From Geomonas agri (GTDB lineage Bacteria > Desulfobacterota > Desulfuromonadia > Geobacterales > Geobacteraceae): a stretch of DNA of 64,000 nucleotides. This document shows positions 44,363-64,000 of this stretch, piece after piece. Every line of letters begins with the position of its first letter. Position 1 is the stretch's first letter. Made by a program: the position numbers and the translations under genes. Where the stretch lies: assembly GCF_020179605.1 (NCBI RefSeq), contig NZ_JAINZO010000001.1, positions 744,001 to 808,000 on the forward strand, given 5' to 3'. Below the pieces are notes generated by a model. It had not been told where the DNA came from. It saw only the letters and a list, made by a program, of their open reading frames with translations, and searched no databases.

Positions 44363-46159
44363 ATGTTTAACATAGCAGCAAAGATACACGCCCTCTTGAC
44401 CAAGGAGGAGCGCAGGAGATTTATCTTTCTGGTCCTCTTCATGATCGTAATGGGACTGATCGACGTCGCCGGAATAGCCTCGATCATGCCGTTCATGGCC
44501 GTGGTGGCCAACCCTAAGGTGATTGAGACCAACGTCTACCTTTCCTGGGCCTATCATGGCTTCGGTTTCACCTCGACTACCCGATTTCTCATCAGTCTCG
44601 GCTTCGTGGTCTTCTTCACCCTCTTGGCCAGCAACGCAATGAAGGCTTTCGTGCTGTACTTCGAACTGAACTTCGTTCACCTACGTCTGTACAGTCTTTC
44701 CCGCCGACTGCTCGAAAGTTACCTCAATCAGCCGTATGTGTATTTCCTTGGGCAGAATACAGCAGTGCTGAGCAAGAACATACTGCAGGAGGTCTCCAAG
44801 TTCTGCCATGAGGTCCTGAGGCCCTGTACCCAGATCTTCTCAAGGGCGGTGGCAGCAACCTTCATCATCTGCCTTTTGCTTGCGGTCGATCCGGTGCTGG
44901 CCCTCACCATCGTCTCCGTACTGGGGGGCGCCTACTCGGTCATCTACGTGATCATCCAGCGAAAGCTTGCCCGGATAGGGGCAGAGCGGTTCAGGGCGAA
45001 TGAGGAGCGTTCTAAAATCGCCAGTGAGGCTTTTGGCGGCATCAAGGATGTCAAGATGCTTCACTGCGACGGGTTTTTTCTGGACCGCTTCTCCCTGCAA
45101 GCCCTTAAGGCTGAGACGAAGATGGTGGGCTACGGTTTGATGTCGCAGCTTCCCAGCTACATCATGGAGGTAACGGCTTTCGGCGGCATTCTCATCATTG
45201 TCTTATATTTCCTCTTTGTCAGGGACTTCGAAAGCACCTTGCCAGTGATAGCGCTCTATGCCTTCGCCGGTGTGCGGCTTATGCCGGCTCTGCAGGGGAT
45301 TTTTTCAGCGCTTACTATCCTGCGCTTCAACCTGCCGATCGTGGACAGTCTGCATCGGGACCTAACAGCCACGCCTGTAGTTCCGATCGGCCCAAAGGGG
45401 GCCATTTCCGCCATGAAGTTTGAAAAGGCGATAACCTTGTCCTCTATAGTTTTCAGCTATCCCGGTGCTGGGATGCCCGTGATAAAAGGACTCGACCTAA
45501 CCATAGAAAAGAATGCTTCCATTGGTCTCGTCGGGGGGACTGGTTCGGGCAAGACAACGCTGGTGGATGTTATCCTCGGTCTGCTCCTCCCTGCATCTGG
45601 TTCCCTCTTGGTCGATGGGGTGGCCGTAACTCCTGACAACGTTGAAAAATGGCACAGGAACTTAGGTTACGTTCCGCAGCACATCTACCTCTGTGACGAC
45701 ACTGTTGCAGCAAACATCGCTTTTGGCGTGCCACCCGATAAGATTGCCGTAGATGCGGTACAGCGAGCGGCTATGATCGCCAACTTGCACGACTTCGTCG
45801 TCAACGAACTCCCGCTAGGATACGAAACCGTGGTTGGTGAGAGGGGGGTTCGTCTGAGTGGAGGTCAGCGGCAGCGTATCGGGATAGCCCGTGCCCTCTA
45901 TCAGGACCCCGAGGTCCTGATCATGGACGAAGCCACTAGTGCACTTGATGGCGCCACTGAAAACGCTGTTATGCAGGGGCTGCACAATCTTCTGGGAAAG
46001 AAGACCATAGTGACCATAGCCCATCGATTCACGACTTTGAAAGAGTGTGATGTGATCTACGTCATTGACAAAGGCCGGATCGTTGAGCAGGGAACATACG
46101 CGCAACTGTCTTCTTTCTCTCAGAGGTTTCAGGCTATGGCTAGGTCAGTTAAAAACTAA
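44363..46159 (+). CDS. ABC transporter, fused permease-ATPase (PglK/MsbA-like flippase)
   Basis: The 598-residue half-transporter has six membrane helices in the first 330 residues and a C-terminal nucleotide-binding domain. The domain shows Walker A GGTGSGKTTLVDVI, the Q-loop LGYVPQHIY, signature LSGGQRQRIGIARALY and Walker B VLIMDEATSALD. It should flip a lipid-linked oligosaccharide or similar glycolipid across the inner membrane as a dimer. Its position between EpsI and the glycosyltransferase cassette fits. Codon use is intermediate between the core and the cassette. Confidence 0.9.
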   Translation: MFNIAAKIHALLTKEERRRFIFLVLFMIVMGLIDVAGIASIMPFMAVVANPKVIETNVYLSWAYHGFGFTSTTRFLISLGFVVFFTLLASNAMKAFVLYFELNFVHLRLYSLSRRLLESYLNQPYVYFLGQNTAVLSKNILQEVSKFCHEVLRPCTQIFSRAVAATFIICLLLAVDPVLALTIVSVLGGAYSVIYVIIQRKLARIGAERFRANEERSKIASEAFGGIKDVKMLHCDGFFLDRFSLQALKAETKMVGYGLMSQLPSYIMEVTAFGGILIIVLYFLFVRDFESTLPVIALYAFAGVRLMPALQGIFSALTILRFNLPIVDSLHRDLTATPVVPIGPKGAISAMKFEKAITLSSIVFSYPGAGMPVIKGLDLTIEKNASIGLVGGTGSGKTTLVDVILGLLLPASGSLLVDGVAVTPDNVEKWHRNLGYVPQHIYLCDDTVAANIAFGVPPDKIAVDAVQRAAMIANLHDFVVNELPLGYETVVGERGVRLSGGQRQRIGIARALYQDPEVLIMDEATSALDGATENAVMQGLHNLLGKKTIVTIAHRFTTLKECDVIYVIDKGRIVEQGTYAQLSSFSQRFQAMARSVKN

Positions 46160-46412
46160 TTAGAGCATTGTGGGGTAGTTAAGAAATGTCCTAACATGCG
46201 CATCTTGTATTCCCAAGTGGTTTAGATTTATAGAGTGATAATTTTACTTATGTATGCCGTGGAAATTTAGTGCAAACAAAGGATTACATTATCATAGTTA
46301 TAGATATTTTGTAGACAAATTAAATTATCTATGAGCTGCTTGAAGTAAACAGTTGACATTGTTTCAAGTAATTATTTTACTCGACAAATTTTGATATCAA
46401 AGGTTCAAAGTA
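46160..46412 (+). other. AT-rich gap upstream of the glycosyltransferase cassette
   Basis: This 253-bp stretch contains no gene. A TTGACA hexamer (46353-46358) with TTTACT 17 bp later is a weak promoter candidate about 30 bp before the next start codon. The base composition is the lowest in G+C of any intergenic stretch here. This suggests that the cassette entered with its own leader. Confidence 0.4.
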
Positions 46413-47633
46413 ATGTTAATTTATATTTTTGCTGAACATTATCCGAATCCATATAAACCTCAATTTGACACTGAGTTTGCATTTTTATTGCGGCAGGGGC
46501 ACGATATTAAGATATTTGTGACTGGCTCTTATATGAGCACAATACACCCACGAGTTCGGGAATATAAATTAGATGAGAAAATTTTGTTATTTCCTACTAC
46601 GTTGAAGACCCTTCCAAAGTTTTCGAAACTCCTTGTTAAGGTTGTTTTGACTGCACCGAAAAGAAGTTTAAAGCGGGCTATATCTGTTTGGAAACCAAAG
46701 GATTCTGTGAAGTCCAATATGCTCAGGACAGCTCGAGCCATGCTTCTCCCTGGGCGCCATCCCCAGTTATGCTACATTCATAACATAGTAACGGCTGAAT
46801 ATGTTGATTTCCTGCGTAACGTTTATCCTGATGCCCGTCATGCAATGTACTTTCATGGTGGAGAGGTTGGTGGGGTGCGACGCGTAACCCGTGACGTAGA
46901 ACTTTTCGGAGCCATGGACGTTGTCTTTACTAACACCCACTTCAGTATGGGGCAAGCCGTAGATCGGGGATGCCCTCCTGAGCGGGTTGTCCCGCTTCCG
47001 GTCGGCTTTGACATTTCGGATTATCCGGCACAAAGAGATAAGAAGTATCGACCGGAAGGAATTCTGCGGTTGATTTCTATCGGCCGCCTGAGCCACGAAA
47101 AAGGGATCATCTTTGCCCTAGAGGGAGTGGCCCTTCTTATCAACGAGGGACAAAAAAACATCAGGTATACCATCGTGGGGCGGGGACTTGAGGAGAGGAT
47201 GCTCAAGGAGTACGTGAAAGCAAACTCCCTGGAAGATTACGTTACTTTCTCAGGAGAAAAGGACAAGGCCGGTGTTGTGAACCTGTTGAGTGAATCGGAT
47301 GTGTTGCTTCTCCCCAGTGTGATGACGGATACTTGGGCAGAGACACAAGCTGCAGTTGTACAAGAGGCGATGTTCATGGAAGTAATCGTTGTGGGTACTA
47401 GAGCAGGAGGCGTCCCGGAATCCACTGCAGATGTCATGAAAGAATTCTCGGTGCCCGTGGGTAATGCTGATGCAATAGCCTCTGCCATAAAAATTATACT
47501 TGCGCTTCCAGAAGAGAAGATCCGTAGCATCTGCAAAGAGGCACGCGAATTTGCTGTCAAGAAGTTCGATATTAATCATATCGGCGTTATTTTTCTTGAG
47601 AAGTCAATGTCAAAACAGCGAACAGTGGAGTAG
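46413..47633 (+). CDS. Glycosyltransferase, GT4-like (first of the cassette)
   Basis: The 406-residue product has a GT-B fold. The N-terminal domain begins MLIYIFAEHYPNPYKPQFDT; the C-terminal domain has LRLISIGRLSHEKGIIFALE and VQEAMFMEVIVVGTRAGGVP with PE in the expected E-x7-E region. It resembles colanic-acid-type GT4 enzymes (WcaL-like), though the sugar specificity is unknown. The start codon has GGTTC/AAAG but only a weak ribosome-binding site. Codon use is AT-richer than the XrtA core. Confidence 0.82.
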   Translation: MLIYIFAEHYPNPYKPQFDTEFAFLLRQGHDIKIFVTGSYMSTIHPRVREYKLDEKILLFPTTLKTLPKFSKLLVKVVLTAPKRSLKRAISVWKPKDSVKSNMLRTARAMLLPGRHPQLCYIHNIVTAEYVDFLRNVYPDARHAMYFHGGEVGGVRRVTRDVELFGAMDVVFTNTHFSMGQAVDRGCPPERVVPLPVGFDISDYPAQRDKKYRPEGILRLISIGRLSHEKGIIFALEGVALLINEGQKNIRYTIVGRGLEERMLKEYVKANSLEDYVTFSGEKDKAGVVNLLSESDVLLLPSVMTDTWAETQAAVVQEAMFMEVIVVGTRAGGVPESTADVMKEFSVPVGNADAIASAIKIILALPEEKIRSICKEAREFAVKKFDINHIGVIFLEKSMSKQRTVE

Positions 47634-47641
47634 TAGGCTTG

Positions 47642-48832
47642 ATGAATCCGATTCCTAAATCAAACATACTGCTTGTCGCCAATTACAAATCAGATGTCGG
47701 CTTTGCTTGGTGGCTGATGGAGAATTTCTGGGCCCAGATTGCTGATTCCTTTTCTGATGTAGCTTCTACGATACTCCTCTATCCTGAGATCGACATTGTT
47801 CCTGATGTAATAAAAAATGCTCCAATTAAATTGATGCAACATGATTTTTCCGACCGCAGTTTCAGTTCGATACGGTCTTTGGTGCGAATTATAAAGGACA
47901 ATTCCATTGATTTTGTATATTTGACAGATAAGAAATATCTCGATTGGGTATATCTTTTGCTGCGGATATATGGAGTACATGTAATTGTTAATCATGACCA
48001 TCTTCCTGGCGAACGAACAAAGGTTGGCTTGGTAAAGAAGTTGGCTAAAAAAGCCATTCACGTTTTAGGTTTATTTTCTTGTGATTGGTATATAGGTGTT
48101 TCCCGATTCGTCATGAATAGAATGATGGAAACTGCCTGCGTTCCCGCCAGTAAATGTACCTACATTCATAACGGTATAAGGTTATTTGATGATTCTAAAA
48201 CATCTTATGCTTATGAGTGTTTCGGAATTGACAAAAGGGCTAAAATAATAGTTTCCACCGGTAGGGCTACCTACTACAAAGGCATCGATTTTCTGATCAA
48301 GTGTGCAAAACGGCTTAAAGAAGAACCTGGGACGGAGGAATTTTTTTTCCTCCATATCGGGGATGGACCGGATCTCGAGAAATTCAAACTGCTTGCGCTG
48401 GAGATGGAGGTTGCCGATCGTTTCCTCTTCGCCGGTTTTCGCACCGATATAACAAAGATATTGCCCTCGTGCGAAATAGGGATTCAGGCTTCCCTGGGAG
48501 AGGCTTTTTCTCTGTCAATCCTTGAGTACATGTGCGCAGGACTTGTCACGATCGTCCCGGATAACTGCGGCAACTCTGAAGCGGTGAAGGATGGCGAGAA
48601 CGGTTTTCTTTTTGTACCAGGGGACATTGACTCAGCTGTCGAGAAGATTTTCAGAGCAATCACTGATAATGAGCTTGCAACAGCCTTAAAGAAGGCGGCA
48701 AGGGCAACTGTTGAGCGTCATTTCAATCTCGAGATTTGCAACAAATCTCTGATCGCGAATCTCCGGCGAGTGTGGGGTGCGCATTTACCATCATTACCGG
48801 AAGGCAGTGGCGTAGATGTAGAACGGACCTAA
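47642..48832 (+). CDS. Glycosyltransferase, GT4-like (second of the cassette)
   Basis: The 396-residue product has the motifs KIIVSTGRATYYKGIDFLIK and EAFSLSILEYMCAGLVTIVPDN of GT4 donors. The ATG is preceded by TTG in frame; the ATG is chosen. It follows the previous gene by 8 bp. The acceptor and donor sugars are unknown. Composition is AT-rich at the 5' half and more balanced at the 3' half. Confidence 0.82.
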   Translation: MNPIPKSNILLVANYKSDVGFAWWLMENFWAQIADSFSDVASTILLYPEIDIVPDVIKNAPIKLMQHDFSDRSFSSIRSLVRIIKDNSIDFVYLTDKKYLDWVYLLLRIYGVHVIVNHDHLPGERTKVGLVKKLAKKAIHVLGLFSCDWYIGVSRFVMNRMMETACVPASKCTYIHNGIRLFDDSKTSYAYECFGIDKRAKIIVSTGRATYYKGIDFLIKCAKRLKEEPGTEEFFFLHIGDGPDLEKFKLLALEMEVADRFLFAGFRTDITKILPSCEIGIQASLGEAFSLSILEYMCAGLVTIVPDNCGNSEAVKDGENGFLFVPGDIDSAVEKIFRAITDNELATALKKAARATVERHFNLEICNKSLIANLRRVWGAHLPSLPEGSGVDVERT

Positions 48833-48836
48833 ACAG

Positions 48837-50030
48837 ATGAATGTCCTAGTTACTGATGGAGAAAACAGATCATCTCTTGCCGTCACCCGCTCCCTTGGCA
48901 GGGCTGGTTGTGCTGTTTTCGTGTCCGCCGCCCGACACAACACTATTTCTTCTTGTTCGAGGTTCTGTCGCAAAGCGTTCTGTGTCCCTGATCCCATATC
49001 AGCACCAGCTGAGTACGTTAAAGCCATCCTCCAATTGGTTAAAACAGAATACATAGACGTGCTCATTCCCATGACTGAGCAGTCTATTTACTGTCTGAAC
49101 GATCATAGACGCGCGTTCCCTGAGAAGATGACATTAGCCTGCACTTCATCGGATCAAATGAAGTTGATCTCCAACAAGAAGAATCTCTTTGAACTAGCCT
49201 CGTCATTACAAGTTCCGATACCTGAAACCATTCATGTGGATTCTGCGGAAAGTTTCTTTGAGCAGGAACCTCATATCGAACAGTTCCCGGTGGTAGTGAA
49301 GCCAGCATACTCAAAACTGTACAGCGATAACAAGATCATTTCCTCAGGCGTCATGTATGCTTCTAATTTTCCTGAATTGAGGCAGTTGTATAAGACAAAG
49401 GAGATTCTGCATCATCCATCCTTAATTCAGGAAATGATTCCGGGGGAGGGAACCGGGCTTTTCACACTCTTTGATTCAGACCGACACTTAGCCCTTTTTT
49501 CGCACCGACGTCTTTTGGAAAAACCTCCATCCGGTGGCGTGAGCGTTCTCAGCGAGAGCGTAAAGTTGGATGAGAACATGGTGTTATATGCTCAAAAGCT
49601 ATTGGGAGCCGTTGGCTGGAGGGGCGTTGCCATGGTCGAATTCAAAAGGGATAGTCGGGATGGCATTCCGAAACTTATGGAGATAAATGGCCGGTTCTGG
49701 GGATCACTTCAACTGGCGGTATCCTGCGGTGTCGACTTCCCGGCTCTTTGTTTGGACTACTATCTTGGGAAGAAGCCTCTGGAAACGGTGGCCCATTACG
49801 CTATCGGTCGCAAGTTGCGATGGTTCTTGGGGATGCTGGATCACGTGCTTATTCGTATTAAGAGGCACGATAGCATTGTTAATATACCTCCAGGAACTCT
49901 AGCCTTGAACGAAGTCATTGCCCAATTGCTGTTTGTGGGAGAAAATACCTATTCTGATGTATTTGACAAAAGAGACCTCGGGCCATTTTTTAATGAGCTG
50001 AAGTGCTATTTCGCCGACTTTGCCCGCTGA
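48837..50030 (+). CDS. ATP-grasp ligase (carboxylate-amine ligase type)
   Basis: The 397-residue product has an ATP-grasp fold: the pre-grasp domain opens MNVLVTDGENRSSLAVTRSL. The ATP-binding strand is FPVVVKPAYSKLYSDNKI and the metal-binding block is VAMVEFKRDSRDGIPKLMEINGRF, with the Glu and Asn ligands. Such enzymes form amide bonds between a carboxylate and an amine, for example amino-acid decoration of a glycan or small molecule. The gene is 4 bp after the previous one. The substrate cannot be told from sequence. Confidence 0.85.
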   Translation: MNVLVTDGENRSSLAVTRSLGRAGCAVFVSAARHNTISSCSRFCRKAFCVPDPISAPAEYVKAILQLVKTEYIDVLIPMTEQSIYCLNDHRRAFPEKMTLACTSSDQMKLISNKKNLFELASSLQVPIPETIHVDSAESFFEQEPHIEQFPVVVKPAYSKLYSDNKIISSGVMYASNFPELRQLYKTKEILHHPSLIQEMIPGEGTGLFTLFDSDRHLALFSHRRLLEKPPSGGVSVLSESVKLDENMVLYAQKLLGAVGWRGVAMVEFKRDSRDGIPKLMEINGRFWGSLQLAVSCGVDFPALCLDYYLGKKPLETVAHYAIGRKLRWFLGMLDHVLIRIKRHDSIVNIPPGTLALNEVIAQLLFVGENTYSDVFDKRDLGPFFNELKCYFADFAR

Positions 50031-50068
50031 CTTTCTGGATGACTAAAGAGATATACAATGGGAATTAG

Positions 50069-51235
50069 ATGATTAACGTTCTTCACTTGACCAACTCCCT
50101 GAATTATGGTGGCCTCGAGCGCGTTGTAATCGATATTTGTCGGCACCTCGACAAGTCTCAGTTCAGGCCTATGGTAGCCTGTATCAGGTGGAAGGGGCCG
50201 CAAGCGGAACTACTTGCCGATCAGGGCATTCCCGTGGTGGTGTTGAAAAATAGATCTTCTTTCATGCCAAAGCACTCTACTTTCCTTGAATTAAAAAAAG
50301 TAATCAAGGAAAACCACATTGATATCATTCATAGTCATAATACTGGGCCGCTTCTTGACGCCATAGCGGCACGGTTTGTCTCTATTTCTTTTCCAAAAAT
50401 CGTGCACACAGATCACAATAGAGTGAAATGGCCCGATAAATCCAAATATATGTTTTTTGAGCGCATCGCCTCGAGAGTCGTTTCCTCGTTTGTTGCTGTT
50501 TCCGAGGATGCCAAAAACAATCTTGTCTTTTTTGAGAAAATTCCTGCAGACGTTATAAAGGTTGTAGACAACGGTATTTCTGTCGAGGCCTTCCAGCAGT
50601 TTATTGGAACTGCTGATGTCACGAAGCGTGAACTCGACCTTCAAAGATTTAAGTATGTAATAGGGGGGTGTGCGGTACTTAGAAAGCAAAAAGGCATCAC
50701 CTACCTGCTTCAGGCGATGCCCGAGATCATAAAGGAGGTACCAAGTGTTTGCTGCGTAATCGGTGGGCATGGCACCGAGCGTGAGGCTCTTGAGGCTCTG
50801 GTTTCAGAACTAGGAATAGAGGAACATGTTCGTTTCATAGGTCCTCGTGACGACGTTGAGAAGATTTTGCCGATCTATGATGTTTTTGTCCTGCCCTCTG
50901 AATCAGAAGGTCTCCCTCTTTCACTTTTGGAGGCAATGGCGGCAAAGAGATGTATCGTGGCAACCTCTGTAGGTGCTGTTCCTAAGGCCCTTGAAGATGG
51001 CAGATGTGGGATTCTCGTGCCACCTAAAGATTCTGAAGCAATATCTGCCGCTGTTGTTCATTTGCTGAAGTCGCCCGAAGACAGAAATAGGTTTTCCTTC
51101 AAAGCGTTTCGATGCGTCAATGAGAACTACAGCGCCTCAGCAATGGCAATGGCTTATGCAGAAATTTATAAGCGGTCACTTGGAGCAAACCTCTACGGCG
51201 GCTTTCCGTGCGGGAGAGGAAAAGTCGAAAGGTAA
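50069..51235 (+). CDS. Glycosyltransferase, GT4-like (PEP-CTERM-associated style)
   Basis: The 388-residue product opens VLHLTNSLNYGGLERVVIDI and has HSHNTGPLLDAIAARF. The C-terminal donor domain shows YVIGGCAVLRKQKGITYLLQ and SESEGLPLSLLEAMAAKRCI. The N-terminus resembles transferases often linked to exosortase clusters, but this is a loose resemblance. It sits 38 bp after the ATP-grasp gene and 4 bp before the O-antigen ligase start. The donor is unknown. Confidence 0.84.
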   Translation: MINVLHLTNSLNYGGLERVVIDICRHLDKSQFRPMVACIRWKGPQAELLADQGIPVVVLKNRSSFMPKHSTFLELKKVIKENHIDIIHSHNTGPLLDAIAARFVSISFPKIVHTDHNRVKWPDKSKYMFFERIASRVVSSFVAVSEDAKNNLVFFEKIPADVIKVVDNGISVEAFQQFIGTADVTKRELDLQRFKYVIGGCAVLRKQKGITYLLQAMPEIIKEVPSVCCVIGGHGTEREALEALVSELGIEEHVRFIGPRDDVEKILPIYDVFVLPSESEGLPLSLLEAMAAKRCIVATSVGAVPKALEDGRCGILVPPKDSEAISAAVVHLLKSPEDRNRFSFKAFRCVNENYSASAMAMAYAEIYKRSLGANLYGGFPCGRGKVER

Positions 51236-51239
51236 AGCT

Positions 51240-52547
51240 ATGGAGTCAACTTATACTGACAGTGTGGGTTCTTTGGCACGTGCTGTATGGCAGGCATTCA
51301 GGCAAGAATCTATAGCTTTCTGGTTGTTGTGCATCTATCTTATTTTCGAGTACAACAAACCGCAGTCCATCTACCCGTTTCTTGCCTTCCTTCCCTGGGG
51401 CAAGGTACTGCTGGGGGCTTGCTTTTTTTTCAGTTTTACCGACCGTAAAGCCCTTGCTCCACACATCTCAGCGGTATTACCCATGGCCGCATTTTCTGTG
51501 GCAGTATTTTTATCCACCATGACAGCATATTCAAGAGCTATTTCTATTGATCACTGGGTGGACTTTTTCAGCTGGGTTTTTGTAGTTTTGCTCATTTCAC
51601 GTTTGGTGACCACCAAGACCAGAATGATTTTGTTCATGATCGTCTACTTCCTCGTGAACCTCAAGATGGCCCAGCACGGCTTTTTTTCCTGGATGCTTCG
51701 TGGGTTCAGCTTTACAGGGTGGGGCGTCAGCGGTTCACCCGGGTGGTTCCAGAACTCGGGTGAATTCAGCATGGAGATGGCTGTTTTTATACCATTAGTC
51801 TTGTCATACATCGCGGCCTTTCGCGAGACGTGGTCGCGCCAGTTCAGGGTTCTTTTTTACTGCATCCTTGTGATGGCAGTCAGCTCAATCATGGCTTGCA
51901 ACTCCCGAGGAGGCATTGTCGGTCTGGTTGCTGTTGGCTTGTGGGGTGGGATATACTCCAGGCAGCGAGTGAAAGCCATTATCTGCCTCGCTGTTGCTGG
52001 CTATATGATCTACACATTTCTGCCACCGCAATTCAAGGCACGCTTTGAAACAGCGGGTGAAGATAAGACTTCGGTTCTCAGGCTAACTTACTGGAGCTAT
52101 GGTTTGCAAGCTGTTCGGGAGCACCCATTGACTGGTGTTGGATTCAAAAACTGGGTGGTCTGGGCGACTGCCAATCGTCCAGAGATAATCGGGCTTAGCG
52201 CCTCTGATAAACAGGCAGAGGTCATTCACAATACCTACCTTGAGGCTGCGACTGAGTTAGGGGGGGGCGGTGCAGCGGTGTATCTCTTGATTCAGTTGCA
52301 GATATTTCTAATGAACCGGTACGCCGCTCGAAAGGCTGCCATTGCCGGGCAGCGTTTTCTGGAGGTGACGGCAGTCGGTTTTACAGGGAGTTTGTTTGCC
52401 TACATGGTCTGTAGTTATTTTATGTCTGTTCTGTACTACCCCTACATTTGGATTCTTCTTGCGCTGACTGTTTGTCTGTCCCGAATATGTGATGCCTCGT
52501 CATTGCCTGAGGCGGTCAAACCTGACGTAGAGGTGGTTAAGTGTTGA
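51240..52547 (+). CDS. O-antigen ligase / Wzy-type polymerase family membrane protein
   Basis: This is a 435-residue protein with about ten to twelve membrane segments and a large periplasmic loop with conserved Arg and His (CNSRGGIVGLV, VREHPLTGVGFKNW, VIHNTYLEAATELG). These are features of the Wzy_C/WaaL family; a subset is linked to exosortase A as putative O-glycosylation ligases. The start at 51240 is chosen; the frame extends 40 codons earlier inside the preceding gene. It may polymerise repeat units or transfer them to protein or lipid. Confidence 0.87.
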   Translation: MESTYTDSVGSLARAVWQAFRQESIAFWLLCIYLIFEYNKPQSIYPFLAFLPWGKVLLGACFFFSFTDRKALAPHISAVLPMAAFSVAVFLSTMTAYSRAISIDHWVDFFSWVFVVLLISRLVTTKTRMILFMIVYFLVNLKMAQHGFFSWMLRGFSFTGWGVSGSPGWFQNSGEFSMEMAVFIPLVLSYIAAFRETWSRQFRVLFYCILVMAVSSIMACNSRGGIVGLVAVGLWGGIYSRQRVKAIICLAVAGYMIYTFLPPQFKARFETAGEDKTSVLRLTYWSYGLQAVREHPLTGVGFKNWVVWATANRPEIIGLSASDKQAEVIHNTYLEAATELGGGGAAVYLLIQLQIFLMNRYAARKAAIAGQRFLEVTAVGFTGSLFAYMVCSYFMSVLYYPYIWILLALTVCLSRICDASSLPEAVKPDVEVVKC

Positions 52548-53089
52548 AAAAGGTAATATCTAGATCAAGAAGCATAGTAAAAAAGCTGGCAGCCAGGATC
52601 CACCTCGCGTCAGCAAGAGTTGATACTCTAAAAAATATCGATGGGAGCCGTGTTGGCAGGCTCGTTTTCGTCTGTTTCGGCAATGTTTGCAGAAGCCCAT
52701 ACGCAGAGGTTGCTGCTCAGACTCAGGGAATTTCTGCAACCAGTTGCGGGGTCGCTGTCAGACGCAGCGCTCCTGCAGAATTGACGGCTGTTGAAGCGGC
52801 TTTGCTCAGAGGAATAGATCTCACAAAGCACAGATCTCGTAGTATCTATCAAGTGGAGCTTAACCCCTCCGACTGCTTGGTGGTGATGGCCCCTTCACAG
52901 CTTACTGTGGCTCTGGCTGTAGCTGCTGAAAATGGCTGTCAAGTGACTCTCATAGGCCTTTGGTGCGATCCTGCTATTGCTGAAATTGCAGATCCCTATG
53001 GAAGACCTTTGGAGGAATTCAGGCAATGCTTTGACGACATAGATAGAGCGTTGGCTGGCTTTTTGCGCGTGATCGGAAAACATATCTAA
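52541..53089 (+). CDS. Low-molecular-weight protein tyrosine phosphatase
   Basis: The 182-residue cytoplasmic phosphatase has the P-loop FVCFGNVCRSPYAE (Cys-x4-Cys-Arg-Ser) and the general-acid block IADPYGRPLEEFRQC. The N-terminus is extended by about 35 basic residues compared with usual 150-residue members. It overlaps the O-antigen ligase stop by 7 bp. It probably dephosphorylates the BY-kinase at 35352. The start GTG is weak; a TTG lies next to it. Confidence 0.88.
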   Translation: MLKKVISRSRSIVKKLAARIHLASARVDTLKNIDGSRVGRLVFVCFGNVCRSPYAEVAAQTQGISATSCGVAVRRSAPAELTAVEAALLRGIDLTKHRSRSIYQVELNPSDCLVVMAPSQLTVALAVAAENGCQVTLIGLWCDPAIAEIADPYGRPLEEFRQCFDDIDRALAGFLRVIGKHI

Positions 53090-53091
53090 TA

Positions 53092-54084
53092 ATGAGGCAA
53101 AAATTGTCAAGACTTTGGATCACATGGGAGAGACAAAGGAGAAACCTTGAACTGTGCAGGGCACTGTCCTGTAAGTACAATGAGTTTAATTATGACAATC
53201 GAAACGGCTTCCTTCGATATTTTCTGTGCCTGTATCAGACAATATTGTTAATAAATAAAGAAAAACCTAAAGTTGTCTTCGGTCAAAATCCGTCCGTTTT
53301 ACTCGCTCTTGTTCTGGTAATGTTAAAAAACATCTTTGGCTATTTCCTTGTAATAGATGCCCACAATGCAGGAATCTATCCTTTTGAAGGCAAGTACTCC
53401 TGCGTTAACAGCGTAATGAAGCGATTTCATTCTCTAGCTGATCTTGTCCTGGTAACAAACGATAAACTCAAAGGTGAATTAGAAAAAGCCGGGGGGAAGG
53501 TGTTCGTCCTTCCTGACAAAGTACCCATGATAGCGTCAGGCAAGAAGAAACATCTTGATGGCAAAATAAACGTACTATTCGTATGCAAGTTCCGCGATGA
53601 TGAACCGTATCTCGAAGCATTTGAAGCTATGAGAGGGGTCCCGGGAGATTTTATACTCTATGTTACAGGAAAATATAATCGCGTCCCGGCAGAGGTGGTA
53701 GCTGCATTGCCACAGAATGTAAGGCTTATTGGGTTTGTGCCAGAACAGGAGTATGAAGCTATGCTGTGTTCGGTAGATGCTGTTATGGATCTGACAACTC
53801 GCGACAATTGCCTTCTTTGTGGCGCTTATGAGGCTGTGGGAGCAGAAAAACCAATGGTCCTCTCACGGAAAAAAGCTCTGCAAGAGTATTTTACCAAAGG
53901 TGTCATTTACGTAGATAACACCGCTGAGGCCATCAGGGATGGCTTGAAAACACTTAACGGTGATTATCCTGTTCTTGCCGTGGAGATCATATCATTGAAA
54001 AAAGAGTTAGAAACCAGCTGGATTACAACTTTACAACAACTTGAACGCAGCATACGCGAACTGCAGGTCGCCGAGGAGGTGTGA
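53092..54084 (+). CDS. Glycosyltransferase-like protein (GT4-related, short form)
   Basis: The 330-residue product is shorter than most GT4 enzymes. It has VVFGQNPSVLLALVLVML, a LVIDAHNAG motif, the linker KINVLFVCKFRDDEPYLEAF and AMLCSVDAVMDLTTRDN with YEAVGAEKPMVLSRKKAL. The EX7E-like pair is present but loose. Gene start is 2 bp after the phosphatase stop, so they are coupled. The sequence is AT-rich. Confidence 0.75.
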   Translation: MRQKLSRLWITWERQRRNLELCRALSCKYNEFNYDNRNGFLRYFLCLYQTILLINKEKPKVVFGQNPSVLLALVLVMLKNIFGYFLVIDAHNAGIYPFEGKYSCVNSVMKRFHSLADLVLVTNDKLKGELEKAGGKVFVLPDKVPMIASGKKKHLDGKINVLFVCKFRDDEPYLEAFEAMRGVPGDFILYVTGKYNRVPAEVVAALPQNVRLIGFVPEQEYEAMLCSVDAVMDLTTRDNCLLCGAYEAVGAEKPMVLSRKKALQEYFTKGVIYVDNTAEAIRDGLKTLNGDYPVLAVEIISLKKELETSWITTLQQLERSIRELQVAEEV

Positions 54085-55140
54085 TTGTTGTCCAGAGCAA
54101 AAAAGTCTCTTGCTGCCAGCATTGACAAACTCATCAATCTGGATGGAGTTATTAAAACTCGTCGCGACAGATACATTTTTTGCTATCACAGAGTTGTGAC
54201 TGCAGAACAGGCCAGACAGGAAGGTATCCATCCTTCCCTGTGGATTTCACCGGAACGTTTTTCATCCCATATTGAATGGATGAAAAATATCGGTGAGATA
54301 ACGGACTATCATCGTATTCTTGAAGACAACCAGACTAAGAAGCCTCTATTCGCCCTAACTTTTGATGATGGCTGGAAAGATAATTATACAAATGCATTTC
54401 CTATCATAAAAAAACAGGATGTCCCGGCTCTTATTTTTATTGCGACTGACGCCGTTGAAACAGGCAGTATTTTTTGGACAGAAGATATTGCTATAAAATC
54501 GAAACGCCAATTAATTGCTTTGGGGTTGGCCAAAGCCAGGAGTAGTCTCATTGCCTGTTTTTCAGAAGCAAAAAAGTGGCGAATCGCAAATGAGCAGTCA
54601 TTTTTAGCTGCTACTCAGATGTGGATCGAGAAACTTAAGACAGTCGCCACGCACGAGAGAGACAATTTTATTGCCTCCTATTACTCTTTGCTGGGAGTAG
54701 AATCATCTCCCTTGCAAGGGTATATCCTGAACTGGTCAGAGATTGAAGATATGTCTTCGTTTAATATATCATTTGGGTCGCATACTCATAAGCATGTAAT
54801 TCTCGAAAATGCACAACCGAACCAGATAGAAGAAGAATTAAAGCTTTCAAAAAAGGTGCTAGCCGAACGGCTTCAGTTTGATATTGATGCGTTCTGCTAT
54901 CCAAATGGACGCTACAGCGGGAAAGAAGGTGAACTCTTGGCAGACTCTGGTTTCGAATATGGCTTTTGCCTTGATAACCAACCATTGTCATGTCGCAGAA
55001 ACAATCACTACATACCAAGATTCCTCGTGAGTGAACAAAAAGTAAATGATGCTGCCTGTTTGAAGCTCTCCTTGCTGCAAGTGCCACTTTTTAAATCCAG
55101 ACCTCACAGGTCAAGCGTGGAGCGCCATGAAGATAGATAA
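54085..55140 (+). CDS. Polysaccharide deacetylase family protein
   Basis: The 351-residue carbohydrate-esterase-4-fold protein has the YIFCYHRVV strand, the metal-binding ALTFDDGWKDNYTNAF with the Asp-Asp pair, and SFGSHTHKHVILENAQ with the zinc His pair. The C-terminal motif FCYPNGRYSGKEGELL is also typical. It would deacetylate a cell-surface sugar. The start is TTG, with GAGGAGGT 5 bp upstream. It overlaps the last transferase by 14 bp. There is no signal peptide. Confidence 0.87.
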   Translation: MLSRAKKSLAASIDKLINLDGVIKTRRDRYIFCYHRVVTAEQARQEGIHPSLWISPERFSSHIEWMKNIGEITDYHRILEDNQTKKPLFALTFDDGWKDNYTNAFPIIKKQDVPALIFIATDAVETGSIFWTEDIAIKSKRQLIALGLAKARSSLIACFSEAKKWRIANEQSFLAATQMWIEKLKTVATHERDNFIASYYSLLGVESSPLQGYILNWSEIEDMSSFNISFGSHTHKHVILENAQPNQIEEELKLSKKVLAERLQFDIDAFCYPNGRYSGKEGELLADSGFEYGFCLDNQPLSCRRNNHYIPRFLVSEQKVNDAACLKLSLLQVPLFKSRPHRSSVERHEDR

Positions 55141-56254
55141 GATCATAGGTGTCGTAGACGAAAGCCCTTATGATGCACGGACATGGTCCGGTTCAAGCAG
55201 ATATTTTTTCAATGCACTGGAAAACACCGGGGTTCTCGGGATGGCGGTAGCAGCTCAACCTGCTAAAGTAATCCGAAGGATCTTTCAAATACTTAGTTTT
55301 CAGTTTGGAATGCGGGAGTGGAAATTCAAGTATCACCTTAACACGCACTATTACCACCAAATGACGGCAACTGCAAAGAAAGCTCTTGATCAGATTGATC
55401 CTTCTTCTTACAATGTAATACTCCAAATTGGAGCATGGTATGATCTTACTGGTTACAAAGACAAAAAAGTAGTTTCATATCATGACGGTAACCTGGCCAC
55501 ACTCTTAGCAAGTCCATATGGCTATCCCAAAATAAATGAAACTGTTATCAATAAAAGCCTACAATGGGAGCAAAAACTTTATAATAAACTTGATCTCCTT
55601 TTCCCAATGAGCCGTTGGTTGGCTGATTCATTTATTCGTGATTTTGGTGTTGACCACCGAAAGATCTTCCCTGTCGGAGCCGGAGTTAATCTACCCCAGG
55701 TTCAGGAAATCAAGCAAAAAAATTATGATGAACCACGAATCCTGTTTGTCGGGAAAGATTTCAAACGTAAAGGCGGGGAAGATCTTCTCAAGGCATTTGA
55801 AATTGTCAGAGGGGAAATACCTAATGCAGAACTCACAGTTGTTGGTCCAGAGTTGGCTTCACCTCCCAAGGGTGTAAGGTGCATTGGATTTGTTTCAAAA
55901 ACGACCTCTGAAGGTATGGAGGTGCTACTTCAGGAGTATCGGCGTGCCTCAATATTTGTTCTACCTTCTCTTTATGAGCCGTTTGGAATTGCCTTCGCGG
56001 AAGCTATGGCGCATAAGCTACCCTGCATTGGAACAAAAATTTGTGCCATGCCGGAGATAATAGAGGACGGGGAAATGGGGTATGTAGTTTCGCCTGGGGA
56101 TTCAGTTGCGTTAGCCGACAAAATGATTACCCTCTTGAAGGAGCCGACTTTGTGCAGCGCCTTTGGCGAAGCAGGTTATGGCAGATACACGGAAAAATTT
56201 ACATGGTCTGCTGTGACTTCACAAATCTGTGAAATTATCTCTTCGCAGTTATGA
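55127..56254 (+). CDS. Glycosyltransferase, GT4-like (last of the cassette)
   Basis: The 375-residue product has the second-domain motifs PRILFVGKDFKRKGGEDLLK and PSLYEPFGIAFAEAMAHKLP, with EAMAHK and the PEIIEDGEMGYVV block. The N-terminal half is less conserved (DESPYDARTWSGSSRYFFNA). It overlaps the deacetylase by 14 bp and ends the cassette at a strong terminator. The donor sugar is unknown. Confidence 0.84.
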   Translation: MKIDKIIGVVDESPYDARTWSGSSRYFFNALENTGVLGMAVAAQPAKVIRRIFQILSFQFGMREWKFKYHLNTHYYHQMTATAKKALDQIDPSSYNVILQIGAWYDLTGYKDKKVVSYHDGNLATLLASPYGYPKINETVINKSLQWEQKLYNKLDLLFPMSRWLADSFIRDFGVDHRKIFPVGAGVNLPQVQEIKQKNYDEPRILFVGKDFKRKGGEDLLKAFEIVRGEIPNAELTVVGPELASPPKGVRCIGFVSKTTSEGMEVLLQEYRRASIFVLPSLYEPFGIAFAEAMAHKLPCIGTKICAMPEIIEDGEMGYVVSPGDSVALADKMITLLKEPTLCSAFGEAGYGRYTEKFTWSAVTSQICEIISSQL

Positions 56255-56266
56255 CTTGTTTTACTG

Positions 56267-56302
56267 AGCTCCGGGGGCGCATAGGCTCCCGGAGCTTTTT
56301 TA
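56267..56302 (+). terminator. Rho-independent terminator closing the glycosyltransferase cassette
   Basis: AGCTCCGGG / CCCGGAGCT forms a 9-bp stem extended by a G-C pair in the loop, followed by six T. It lies 13 bp past the last stop codon of the cassette. Confidence 0.88.
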
Positions 56303-56311
56303 CCAATGCTT

Positions 56312-57775
56312 TTACTTGGTTATGTTGGTTGGTCTAACCCCTGAAGGAGGAATGACCGCTATACTGCCTGTCGCATTGTAACCTATCTGTTCATTACCTG
56401 TTTCGTAGGCTCCGGCTCGTGTTGAATATTTGCTAGATCCGAAGTTTTCGAAATACGAAGCACGCTTAAAGTCTCCAGGTTTGCTTCCTGTAGCATTCAC
56501 GAAATTAGGTGATCCATTAATTGAAGCGGAATCCATTGAAGAGTAAGCCTGCCATGCAGATAGATTTGAGGCGGTAGTTGTGCTTGGAGATCCCCAAATT
56601 GCTGTATTATAGTAAACATTAAAGTTGGAACCAAGTAATTGATTTAGTGAGTAAACCCTAATAAAGGCTTGACCTGTGTTGCTATGATAAAATAGATTGT
56701 TGTATAATTCGAAAAAACTTCCAGTGATACTGCTGCTAGGTTGATTTACATCAGTTGCGCAATTTACAAAAGTGTTATTGTAAAATACATTATCAATTGC
56801 AGGTGCTCCAATTACATTGATGCCAATCGATAAATTTTGGAAAATGTTGTGGTGTATGTACTGATATGATGTTTGTTGTGCTTGGTTGAAACCTCTGACT
56901 CCGACAGTTGCTATAGGAGATATATTCGAAGGAGCAAAAAAGTTATATTTCACTTCTGTTGTTCTTCCTGTCTGCCCAGAACCATCCTTATCTTCGAAAT
57001 AAGTTCCGTATCCATCGTAAAATGTGTTTTGTTCGAGAACAGCTGTAAAAGCATACCCTATGACTAGCGAACCGTCGTTGCTTTCAACTCTGCGGCAATT
57101 GTAATGGATGAGGTTGTTCTTTAGCAAGGCATTGTATACATAATTAAATCTTACAGTATTGCCCTGATCTGATGTAATTGTTCCTGAACCTCCACCTCCA
57201 CCTAAGTCGCTATTTTGGATGGTGACGTCATGCCCACCGAGTATATAGACCTGCCCGTATGCCCTTACCCCGTCAATCACGACGTAGTTTGCATCGTATG
57301 TCATTATGGATGGGTTCGGGTAATACCCCCATGAGCCGGTTCCTGTTGAGTCTGACGGGTTACTATTGTATGTGGCGCCCCTTTGAGCTGTTCCGATTGT
57401 AACCTTTAATTCTTCACTGGGGTAGGCTTTAATGATGGTGGGCGAAGTCGCTGACCCTGATTTAGTGGAGGGGATATGCAGCGATCCTGACAGTTTGCTG
57501 CCACTATCGCGAAAGTATTTTCCCTCACGAATGTAGTTAGTTGCACTAGGGGTCAGATTCGTCACAAATGATGCGAGAGTGAGATAAACCGTGTCACTGC
57601 CACTGCCGCAAGAGCGCGTAGAGGGCGAGTAGCTGCGAGATCCATCGGTACAGCCCGTAGTGCTGCCATCTAGATAGGTCGCGCCGCTACACAAAGCGTA
57701 ATTGCCTACGCCGTAGAGCAGCAAAAAAGCCAGTATTATGAATGCCCTTTTTCGGTAATTTCTATTCTGATACAT
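56312..57775 (-). CDS. Secreted right-handed beta-helix repeat protein
   Basis: This is a 487-residue protein with a signal peptide (RAFIILAFLLLYGVGNYALC). Parallel beta-helix coils rich in Asn, Ser, Thr and Gly follow (VVIDGVRAYGQVYILGGHDV, LLKNNLIHYNCRRVESNDGS, YIHHNIFQNLSIGINVIGAP). The fold is used by pectate-lyase-like enzymes and by adhesins; no catalytic residues are recognisable. The ATG at 57775 has GGAGGTAATC before it. A GEMM-I riboswitch lies in its leader, so synthesis should respond to a cyclic dinucleotide. It ends close to the cassette terminator. Confidence 0.83.
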   Translation of the reverse strand: MYQNRNYRKRAFIILAFLLLYGVGNYALCSGATYLDGSTTGCTDGSRSYSPSTRSCGSGSDTVYLTLASFVTNLTPSATNYIREGKYFRDSGSKLSGSLHIPSTKSGSATSPTIIKAYPSEELKVTIGTAQRGATYNSNPSDSTGTGSWGYYPNPSIMTYDANYVVIDGVRAYGQVYILGGHDVTIQNSDLGGGGGSGTITSDQGNTVRFNYVYNALLKNNLIHYNCRRVESNDGSLVIGYAFTAVLEQNTFYDGYGTYFEDKDGSGQTGRTTEVKYNFFAPSNISPIATVGVRGFNQAQQTSYQYIHHNIFQNLSIGINVIGAPAIDNVFYNNTFVNCATDVNQPSSSITGSFFELYNNLFYHSNTGQAFIRVYSLNQLLGSNFNVYYNTAIWGSPSTTTASNLSAWQAYSSMDSASINGSPNFVNATGSKPGDFKRASYFENFGSSKYSTRAGAYETGNEQIGYNATGSIAVIPPSGVRPTNITK

Positions 57776-57823
57776 GATTACCTCCGCGTGAGGGCTATCA
57801 GCGTCCGATTCTTTTTCGAAATA

Positions 57824-57872
57824 GAAAAAGCCGGGGCCGCAACCTTTTTCCTGGTCTTTCGGCATCCCGGCT
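57824..57872 (-). terminator. Riboswitch expression-platform terminator
   Basis: On the minus strand AGCCGGG pairs with CCCGGCT, and GCCG with CGGC inside it; TTTTTCTATTTC follows. The 5' half of this stem is the 3' end of the GEMM aptamer, so aptamer and terminator cannot form together. This predicts that ligand binding allows transcription of the beta-helix gene. Confidence 0.75.
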
Positions 57873-57932
57873 GTCTCGGTGAGACCCTAGGCTTTCCGTC
57901 CCATCCTCACGGATGGTTTGGTTTTATCGATT
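57858..57932 (-). ncRNA. GEMM-I riboswitch aptamer (c-di-GMP/cGAMP class, A20 variant)
   Basis: The conserved GEMM core is visible on the minus strand: AAACC-ATCC-GTGA-GGAT-GGGACG, then GAAAGCC, then a helix GGGTCTC / GAGAC and the 3' AGCCGGGATGCCG. The tetraloop is GTGA, a GNRA. The base aligned with G20 of the Vibrio Vc2 switch is A, the change associated with 3',3'-cGAMP recognition in Geobacter. GACGG replaces GACGC, an atypical C46-to-G change. It lies about 83 nt upstream of the beta-helix start codon. Confidence 0.85.
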
Positions 57933-57973
57933 ACCTGATTTTGTTGTCAATACTGCGTCAAAACATGCCCAGG

Positions 57974-58004
57974 AAATGTGACTCCAAATACAGGAATCAC
58001 ATTT
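57974..58004. other. Inverted repeat between the adhesin stop and the riboswitch
   Basis: AAATGTGACTCC / GGAATCACATTT is a 12-bp stem with one G-T pair and a 7-nt loop. It starts 19 bp past the adhesin stop on the minus strand and may terminate it, but the longer T-run is on the plus side. TGTGA and TCACA arms could also be a regulator site. A TTGACA hexamer lies between it and the aptamer on the minus strand. Confidence 0.5.
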
Positions 58005-58023
58005 TTCTCCGCTCGCAAAGAGT

Positions 58024-60633
58024 TTACTTTTTGCGGTTTTTCACTGTCACATTCACGTTGGATGCCTGCTTTTGATTGCCCGCTGCATCGTAGGCTATCG
58101 CCGAGATGGCATAGGTGCTGTTCGACATTTTTGTCGTGTCCCACGCGTAACTGTAGGGCGCTCGGGTGAGGCTCGTAATGAACCTCCCCCCGATGTAGAT
58201 CTCTACCTTCGTGACACCGACGTTGTCGCTGGCGCTCGCGCTGATCGTCACCGTTCCGCTCACAGTCGAGTTGTTGCCAGGGGAGGTTATGGCGACCGTC
58301 GGGGCTGTCGTATCCGGCACCACGTTCGATACGTTGACAGAACTGCTCTGGGAAACCCCCACGTTGCCGGACCCGTCGTATGCCTTCGCTGTCAAGGTGT
58401 AGCTCCCGTTGGCCACCTTCGTGGTATCCCAGCTGTAGGCATAGGGGGATGCTGTGCTGGTGGAGACGAGGACGCCGTTTCGGTAGAACTCCACCTTGCT
58501 AACTGAGACGTTGTCCGAGGCGCTGGCGGTCACCGAAACCGTCCCGCTCACGGTGGAGCCACTGCTGGGGGAGGTGACGGCCACGGTCGGGGCGGTCACG
58601 TCGTTGAAGACTTTGACGGTCGCGCTCGCCGACGTCCCCACGTTGCCCGCCGCGTCGTAGGCCTTGGCGGACAGGGTGTAGCTGCCGTTTACCAGGGTCC
58701 TCGTGTCCAGGCTGTAGCTGTAGGGGGAGGCGGTGCTCGTCGCAAACAGCACGCCGTTTCTGTAGAACTCGACCTTGCTGACCCCCACGTTGTCAGAGGC
58801 GCTCGCGCTCACCGTGATGGTGCCGCTTACGGTGCTCCCGTCCAGAGGAGAGGCCATGGCAACGGTCGGCGCGATGGTGTCGGCTACGGCGTTGGAAACG
58901 GTGACCACCGAGCCCTGTGCTTGGGTGACGTTCCCCGCGGCGTCGTAGGCCTTGGCGGTCAGCGTGTAGCTGCCGTTCGCCACGGTTTTGGTGTCCCAGT
59001 TGTAGCTATAGGGCGCGGTGGCGACGGTCGTCTGCAGCACGTTGTTCCTGTAGAACTCGACTTTGCTCACCCCCACGTTGTCGCTCGCGTTCGCCGTTAC
59101 CGTGACGGTGCCGTTCACCGTGGAGCCGGAAAGCGGGGAGGCCATGCTGACGCTCGGGGCGATGAGGTCGTTCGACACGTTGACGGTGAGGATCTGCGAC
59201 TGCCCCAGGTTGCCGGCAGCATCGTAGGCCTTCGCCGTCAGGGTGTAAACCCCGTTGGCGACGCTCTTGCTGTCCCAGGTATAGGCGTAGGGGGACATGT
59301 TGGTGGCGGAGAGAAGGGCGTTGTTCAGGTAGAACTCGACCCTGCTTACCCCTACGTTGTCGGTGGCGCTGGCTGCGATGTTCACCGACCCGCTCACGGT
59401 CATGTTGTTCCCCGGGGAGGTGAGCGAGACGCTAGGCGCGGTCAAATCATTGGCCACGTTCACCGTGACGCTCTGGGATTGTCCGATGTTCCCCGCGGCG
59501 TCGTACGCCTTGGTCATCAGGGTGTAGCTCCCGGGGGTAAGGGCACTGGTGTCCCAGGAGTAGACGTAGGGAGAGGAGGGGATGGTCGCCTGCAGGGCCC
59601 CGTTCACGTAGAACTCCACCTTGGTCACCCCGACGTTGTCGGCGGCGTCGGCCGTGACCGACACGGTCCCCGCCACCGTCGCCGAGCTGGAAGGGTAGGT
59701 GATGGCGGTCGTGGGGGCCTGCATCTCGGCGACGGTCACCACGTTCGAGTAGGCGCTCTCCTCGCCGGCCGAGTTGTAGGCGGTGACGGCGAAGCTGTAG
59801 GAGTGGGAGGGGTCCAGGTTGGCGATTGTTGCGGCGGTGAGGCTCTGCACGTCCACCGGCGCCGGCCCCTGAAAGGGCTGCGTCGTGGAGTCGGGCTGGT
59901 AGTGGACCTTGTAGCCCACCACGGTAGTGTCGGGGGAGGGGTCCCACTGCAGGGAAACGGAGGAGGCGGAGGCCGCGCTGCTCATGCCCATGGCCATGAT
60001 GGCGGCAACGACGGCGTTGACACACATCTTCTGCAGGCGTACCGCGTGGTTTACCTCGCTTCTGCGCACGTACCCCTCGGCGACGAGGACGTCGCCAAGT
60101 TTCCTTCCCGTCTGGCCCTGCTTGGCAAGGGCCCGCTCCAACTGCTCGCGCGTGATGTGGCCGGTGGCAACGAGCAATTCGCCCAGTCTAAGGGGCGTGC
60201 CGGACGGGGCTCCCTGGTTCTGTTGCCAGTCGAGAAGGCCCTTAAGCTGAGGCTCGGTCAGTATGCCAAGCCGCGTGAAAACTTGGCCCAGGCGCTCTCC
60301 GCTTCTCTTTTGCTCGGCGATCGCCTCGTCGAGCTGCGCCCCGGTTATCTTCCCCGACTGCACCAAAAGTGCGCCGAGAAGCTGCCGGTCGCCGGCCGCC
60401 AATTTGGCCGCGTCTTCAATGTGGCTTAAGTGCTGCTGGATGAGCAGCGGCGCTGCGACGTCCTCTGGCTTCAGGACACCCATCCTGACCAGGACACCGC
60501 CCAGCAGTTCATGGGTTGTCTTTTGCTCAGCCAGGGCTCGGTTGAGGGTGTGCTTCGAGACGAATTTGCCGTCGAGCAGTATCTGGCCAAGCGCGCGTCT
60601 GGAAATCCGTTGGAGAAGGTTAGGGCTCTGCAT
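58024..60633 (-). CDS. MshEN-like c-di-GMP sensor fused to an Fn3/Ig-repeat surface protein
   Basis: This is an 869-residue protein. Residues 14-66, 86-137 and 149-201 are three MshEN-type (GspE N-terminal) units with the RLGxxLxxxGxIxxxQLxxALxxQ pattern that binds c-di-GMP, e.g. RLGELLVATGHITREQLERA. A hydrophobic segment with a signal-peptidase-like end (VNAVVAAIMAMGMSSAASA, 205-223) follows. Then come an Fn3 domain (227-305) and six Ig-like repeats of about 93 residues (SVSASATDNVGVSRVEFYL style) to the end. The topology implies a cytoplasmic sensor and an extracytoplasmic adhesin. I know no named family with this order. Confidence 0.85.
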   Translation of the reverse strand: MQSPNLLQRISRRALGQILLDGKFVSKHTLNRALAEQKTTHELLGGVLVRMGVLKPEDVAAPLLIQQHLSHIEDAAKLAAGDRQLLGALLVQSGKITGAQLDEAIAEQKRSGERLGQVFTRLGILTEPQLKGLLDWQQNQGAPSGTPLRLGELLVATGHITREQLERALAKQGQTGRKLGDVLVAEGYVRRSEVNHAVRLQKMCVNAVVAAIMAMGMSSAASASSVSLQWDPSPDTTVVGYKVHYQPDSTTQPFQGPAPVDVQSLTAATIANLDPSHSYSFAVTAYNSAGEESAYSNVVTVAEMQAPTTAITYPSSSATVAGTVSVTADAADNVGVTKVEFYVNGALQATIPSSPYVYSWDTSALTPGSYTLMTKAYDAAGNIGQSQSVTVNVANDLTAPSVSLTSPGNNMTVSGSVNIAASATDNVGVSRVEFYLNNALLSATNMSPYAYTWDSKSVANGVYTLTAKAYDAAGNLGQSQILTVNVSNDLIAPSVSMASPLSGSTVNGTVTVTANASDNVGVSKVEFYRNNVLQTTVATAPYSYNWDTKTVANGSYTLTAKAYDAAGNVTQAQGSVVTVSNAVADTIAPTVAMASPLDGSTVSGTITVSASASDNVGVSKVEFYRNGVLFATSTASPYSYSLDTRTLVNGSYTLSAKAYDAAGNVGTSASATVKVFNDVTAPTVAVTSPSSGSTVSGTVSVTASASDNVSVSKVEFYRNGVLVSTSTASPYAYSWDTTKVANGSYTLTAKAYDGSGNVGVSQSSSVNVSNVVPDTTAPTVAITSPGNNSTVSGTVTISASASDNVGVTKVEIYIGGRFITSLTRAPYSYAWDTTKMSNSTYAISAIAYDAAGNQKQASNVNVTVKNRKK
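58030..59715 (-). repeat. Six tandem Ig-like repeats at the DNA level
   Basis: Six consecutive units of about 280 bp encode Ig-like domains with the shared blocks DNVGVSKVEFYRN, PYSYSWDT, NGSYTLTAKAYDAAGN. Copies 3 to 5 are the most alike in DNA sequence, a substrate for unequal recombination. Copy number is likely to vary among strains. Confidence 0.85.
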
Positions 60634-63963: not shown

Positions 63964-64000
63964 TACACGATAATACTAAACCATCCGCGAGGGTGGGACG
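63964..64000 (+). ncRNA. Second GEMM-I riboswitch, cut by the window edge
   Basis: The 5' part of a GEMM-I aptamer is visible: CACGATAA-TACT-AAACC-ATCC-GCGA-GGGT-GGGACG, with a GCGA GNRA tetraloop. Spacing and core bases parallel the first riboswitch at 57858. The base aligned with Vc2 G20 is again A. The rest of the aptamer and the controlled gene lie outside the window. Confidence 0.8.

Follow-up and report, generated by a model that had tools for sequence, protein, structure and literature searches.

In the 64,000-nucleotide stretch of the Geomonas agri genome analysed here (the window), a GEMM-I riboswitch stands next to a block of exopolysaccharide genes. Our comparison with related genomes makes it rather probable that this is a conserved GEMM-Ib switch located at the border of an exchangeable exopolysaccharide island, where it would control the island's polysaccharide-active secreted protein (the 'cargo'). 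What is new is this setting, that is, the position at the island border and the swapped cargos, and not the RNA itself, which is an ordinary member of GEMM-Ib.

The riboswitch and its terminator

The original prediction of a GEMM-I riboswitch, for which a covariance-model search had been proposed as a check, was borne out by cmscan: the window contains one complete GEMM-I aptamer, on the minus strand at positions 57932–57858 (RF01051, 58.4 bits versus a cut-off of 35; E = 7.7e-9). Its 5' core reads AAAACCAAACC versus GGGCAAACC in Vc2, so that A indeed occupies the position of Vc2 G20, and its loop, GUGA, is the GNRA tetraloop that had been noted. The Vc2 pair G21–C46 is replaced by C–G, a compensated change which keeps the helix, and the pocket consists of A20, A47 and C92, with A47 and C92 being the standard bases. 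The variant families c-di-GMP-I-GGC (RF03167) and c-di-GMP-I-UAU (RF03168) belong to the same clan and share the overall fold, but differ from the window aptamer in the pocket. Assignment to RF03167 was rejected, since the score of 56.0 bits lies below the cut-off of 59 and the family needs G20 and G47 where the aptamer has A20 and A47.

An intrinsic terminator (57824–57871, minus strand) overlaps the aptamer. Its arms (57871–57860 and 57839–57830) are followed by UUUUUC ending at 57824 (U-tract 57829–57824), and together the two elements account for the whole predicted span of 57824–57932. Because the 5' arm of the terminator, GCCGGGAUGCCG, doubles as the aptamer's 3' strand, the two folds are mutually exclusive; the ligand-free minimum-energy fold contains the terminator (−56.7 kcal/mol; z = −2.8), which agrees with the earlier claim that the aptamer 3' end is reused. 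Corresponding terminators are found in the sister species G002, G005 and G013. Taken together, A20, the GUGA tetraloop and the overlapping terminator make a cGAMP-sensing transcriptional ON switch (GEMM-Ib) the best reading, and the overlap likewise supports the ON logic proposed originally, which would be the direction expected in vivo. In a fourth sister species, G011, the orthologous switch (L152, 7382–7486) has kept its aptamer and lost the U-tract of the terminator, which is replaced by a 12-bp hairpin lacking a U-tract; its off-state may be broken or may work differently.

The genome holds 20 GEMM-I RNAs above the cut-off, with cores that read A20 in 11 cases and G20 in nine. Three GEMM-I switches lie within 1.1 kb at G000:C2 173586–174657 (L004, L005, L015), where a hemerythrin-like gene has an A20 switch in front of it and two tandem G20 switches follow before another gene. 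At G000:C1 165473 (L013, with L101), an A20 switch precedes the gene of an apparent MshEN-domain protein, a family that binds c-di-GMP, and this site is a possible point of cross-talk between cGAMP and c-di-GMP.

The conserved gene ahead of the switch

Upstream of the aptamer and on the same strand, the gene at 58024–60633 encodes an 869-residue protein comprising MshEN-type c-di-GMP-binding repeats (NF053729, 149.9 bits versus a cut-off of 38), a hydrophobic segment near residues 202–220, an FN3 domain and six Big_7 domains, which shows 63–83% identity in relatives. The product appears to be a cytosolic dinucleotide sensor fused to an exported Ig-repeat stalk, and conservation of the gene extends to at least 11 genomes of the genus. 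FN3-domain surface proteins have been reported behind GEMM switches (PMC2996986; PMC13194489). Two more A20 GEMM-I switches lie at and past the right end of the window (63965–64000; L116 9966–10042 and 11378–11454), the first of them straddling that end. Each precedes an FN3-Big_7 paralogue of the 58024–60633 protein devoid of the MshEN part, and these pairs match the GEMM-controlled triplication of FN3-domain genes in G. bemidjiensis (Gbem_1796/1798/1799; PMC2996986). The latter probably belongs to the same locus family; its description reports switches near FN3 genes, while swapped downstream cargo is absent from it.

Between this gene and the aptamer we observed a 12-bp inverted repeat (AAATGTGATTCC/GGAGTCACATTT; about 57979–58009) and the motif GCAGTATTGACA (about 57945–57956), which recurs at the same distance from the aptamer in all five species that have the switch. 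Repeat and motif may represent a promoter, a terminator or a regulator site.

Switch and cargo in sister species

Four sister species (G002, G005, G011 and G013) likewise have this switch, with its AAAACCAAACC core and A20, after the MshEN gene, and what follows it varies. In G002 the next gene encodes a TIG protein with a weak PL14 match (its G011 counterpart is 89% identical), in G005 a PF14099 polysaccharide lyase (39.8 bits) and in G013 an Ig-domain protein. When the DNA of G002 and G005 is aligned, identity is 92–100% in the 600 bases that lead up to and include the aptamer and 94% in the terminator; beyond it, identity drops to 30–60%, the value that unrelated sequences reach in this alignment. 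G002 and G011, on the other hand, share the cargo (89%) and six island genes (82–89%), but their switches differ. The break behind the switch in the one comparison and the sharing of cargo and island in the other imply that switch and cargo are inherited separately: to judge from these sequences, the cargo goes with the island and the conserved switch with the upstream gene. Between species the aptamer is 90–100% identical, and the DNA just upstream of it often only 44–56%. In a tree of the upstream gene G002 groups with G013 and G005, a topology that does not decide between gain and loss of the switch. The riboswitch upstream of a target gene is thus present as originally predicted; what that prediction missed is the separability of the two, the downstream gene changing from species to species.

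In six further species the switch is missing and a secreted protein is encoded right after the MshEN gene; the switch is therefore not essential to the arrangement. Their cargos are a PF14099 lyase in G003 (33.5 bits), a PL14 protein in G014 (PF21294, 27.8 bits), a pectate lyase-like protein in G007 (PDB 9buj, 6e-32), a NosD-type β-helix protein in G012, a weak PL14 match in G001 that is 28% identical to the G005 lyase and, in G010, a protein without a Pfam match which is homologous to that of G014.

The window cargo itself (57775–56312, minus strand; 487 residues) is preceded by a GGAGG ribosome-binding site and has a signal-peptide-like start. The next genes run in the opposite direction, so that it stands alone. 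It had been described as a secreted β-helix protein, and the secreted-type start is indeed there; the fold is weakly supported. The cargo has no Pfam match of its own, and Pfam and PDB sequence searches gave no lyase-family match, those of the PDB being empty or at chance level. An order-wide profile search identified a single homologue, the G012 protein (30% identity), which matches NosD (PF05048, 25.8 bits versus a cut-off of 23.6), and scans of genome contigs revealed no relatives. Comparing its profile with those of Beta_helix proteins and of lyases yielded no signal, and a single-sequence AlphaFold model has a pLDDT of 31. The window cargo is probably a secreted parallel β-helix protein of unproven fold and activity, and it occupies a position where sister species have different genes.

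Converging on the cargo gene is a variable, low-GC exopolysaccharide island (44363–56254, plus strand) with low identity to relatives, in which Pfam recognizes glycosyltransferases, an O-antigen ligase, a deacetylase and an ABC transporter; farther off follow components of an exosortase-type export system (EpsH, DUF3485, Poly_export, GNVR, Bac_transf). The GC content is 42–55% in the island versus 62–63% beyond the switch. For the MshEN gene it amounts to 63%, for the cargo to 43% and for the island genes next to it to 45%, with the step located at the switch. Hence, the switch marks a sharp boundary between a conserved gene of 63% GC and an exopolysaccharide island of 43–47% GC. On a larger scale, the 42–55% GC segment at 44363–57900 sits inside an exosortase/PEP-CTERM-type export locus of 62–68% GC, which lies at about 28.9–44.4 kb on the other side of the island.

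Polysaccharide lyases as a possible target class of GEMM-I RNAs

PF14099 matches occur in 19 of the 138 genomes of the order, and in nine of these 19 (G005, G024, G037, G038, G066, G093, G105, G124 and G134) the lyase gene is immediately preceded, at no more than about 300 nt from its start, by a GEMM-I RNA, the upstream DNA of G028, G033 and G043 being outside this comparison. The pairs span three families of the order; eight of the nine lyase-associated switches have A20 and one has G20, and G066 possesses a second lyase with a G20 switch. Given about 20 switches per genome and some 4000 genes, well under one such pair would be expected by chance, an estimate that ignores common descent. An alignment of these secreted proteins has matches among enzymes of solved structure, namely alginate lyases and a glucuronan lyase (6.5e-6 and 7e-4). 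These observations suggest that secreted polysaccharide lyases constitute a recurrent class of targets of GEMM-I switches, mostly those with A20, in three families of the order. β-Helix genes in general were considered as a target class of A20 switches and discarded, an A20 core being found at none of 30 PF13229 loci.

Discussion

The ligand of the window switch is likely 3',3'-cGAMP. Apart from A20 itself, this assignment draws on published work in which the replacement A20G converted the cGAMP aptamer of Gmet_0970 into one for c-di-GMP and deletion of gacA lowered all genes behind GEMM-Ib switches (PMC6456294), and on a GacA-like Hypr GGDEF protein encoded in the same genome, from which the cGAMP-type signature pointed out originally gains further weight. 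This protein (L071), a receiver-GGDEF protein of 459 residues with Ser rather than Asp at the selectivity position, has GacA of G. metallireducens as its best PDB match (6d9m, 2e-67) and is the only one with the Hypr motif (GHLIGSRVL ... GGDEY) among 30 GGDEF loci screened, in most of which the motif was readable. A20 alone is no proof of ligand choice, and the genome also has its nine G20 switches and about 30 GGDEF matches, so one could argue that the window switch responds to c-di-GMP, or to both dinucleotides. With A20 being the published determinant, a Hypr GGDEF encoded and A47 and C92 standard, we regard this as very unlikely. Possible, if somewhat doubtful, and compatible with the island-border explanation is that the switch works chiefly on transcripts reading through from the MshEN gene, i.e., as an attenuator within an operon and not on a promoter of its own. 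The gene is on the same strand, with about 90 nt from its stop codon to the aptamer, and that interval has neither a minus-strand terminator nor a clear sigma-70 promoter from which transcription would begin shortly before the aptamer; however, the GCAGTATTGACA-like motif that all five species have conserved immediately 5' of the aptamer may serve as a promoter.

Another alternative takes the RNA to be a plain GEMM-Ib switch with a lineage-specific target, the varied downstream genes reflecting ordinary turnover beside a polysaccharide cluster and having no functional meaning. Polysaccharide loci turn over fast, and the sample is small, with five species having the switch and its presence being patchy. 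However, nearly all of the cargos are secreted and several match lyases, the association of lyases with GEMM RNAs recurs in three families of the order, and the aptamer stays nearly invariant next to DNA that has often diverged far more. On balance, we hold mere turnover to be rather unlikely and prefer a conserved switch at the border of an exchangeable island.

According to the latter explanation, high cGAMP would lead the aptamer to retain its 3' strand, thereby blocking the overlapping terminator and permitting transcription of the single downstream gene, the product of which would then be made and exported. The switch would be part of the conserved chromosomal backbone, behind the MshEN-FN3-Big_7 gene and next to the exchangeable exosortase-type exopolysaccharide island, so that any secreted protein at that end of the island would fall under the control of cGAMP. 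The cargos probably act on polysaccharides, as lyases or in other ways, and may be matched to the polymer of their island; we infer both their enzymatic activity and this match from sequence. Their likely role would be to let the cell trim or remodel its own matrix when it turns to surface respiration.

With the Geobacter GEMM-Ib switches (pgcA switch GSUR3008, Gmet_0970; PMC6456294) the window switch shares the GEMM-I fold, A20, the terminator/aptamer overlap, the ON logic and a Geobacter-like host with a Hypr GGDEF. It differs from them in that its target is a secreted, probably β-helical protein and that it borders an exchangeable polysaccharide island, with a downstream gene that differs between species. 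The contrast with 'cytochrome-type targets' drawn in the original prediction was overstated, since the published GEMM-Ib targets include, besides cytochromes, genes for pili and polysaccharide biosynthesis (PMC6456294). In the literature consulted we found no lyase among the GEMM targets and no switch retained at the border of an island; this is weak evidence, since the comparison did not extend to the target lists in the two PNAS papers of 2015 with which work on cGAMP riboswitches began. At O-antigen and capsule loci, the JUMPstart/ops element recruits RfaH and precedes the biosynthesis operon. The two arrangements are alike in having a conserved element of transcription-elongation control at the edge of exchangeable polysaccharide genes, whereas the window has a small-molecule riboswitch which would control a single secreted protein gene.

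Coevolution with the target gene is the usual expectation for a riboswitch. At this locus the target has been exchanged and the switch retained, which would make it a clear example of one regulatory RNA capturing a succession of foreign genes. It is tempting to think of a fixed cGAMP socket which borders a horizontally exchanged island, puts each new polymer-specific enzyme under control at once and, with the MshEN surface protein, joins two dinucleotide messengers in matrix remodelling, a proposal that may hold and that we advance tentatively. Lyase targets, finally, would link cGAMP signalling in metal-respiring bacteria to the remodelling of their own matrix.
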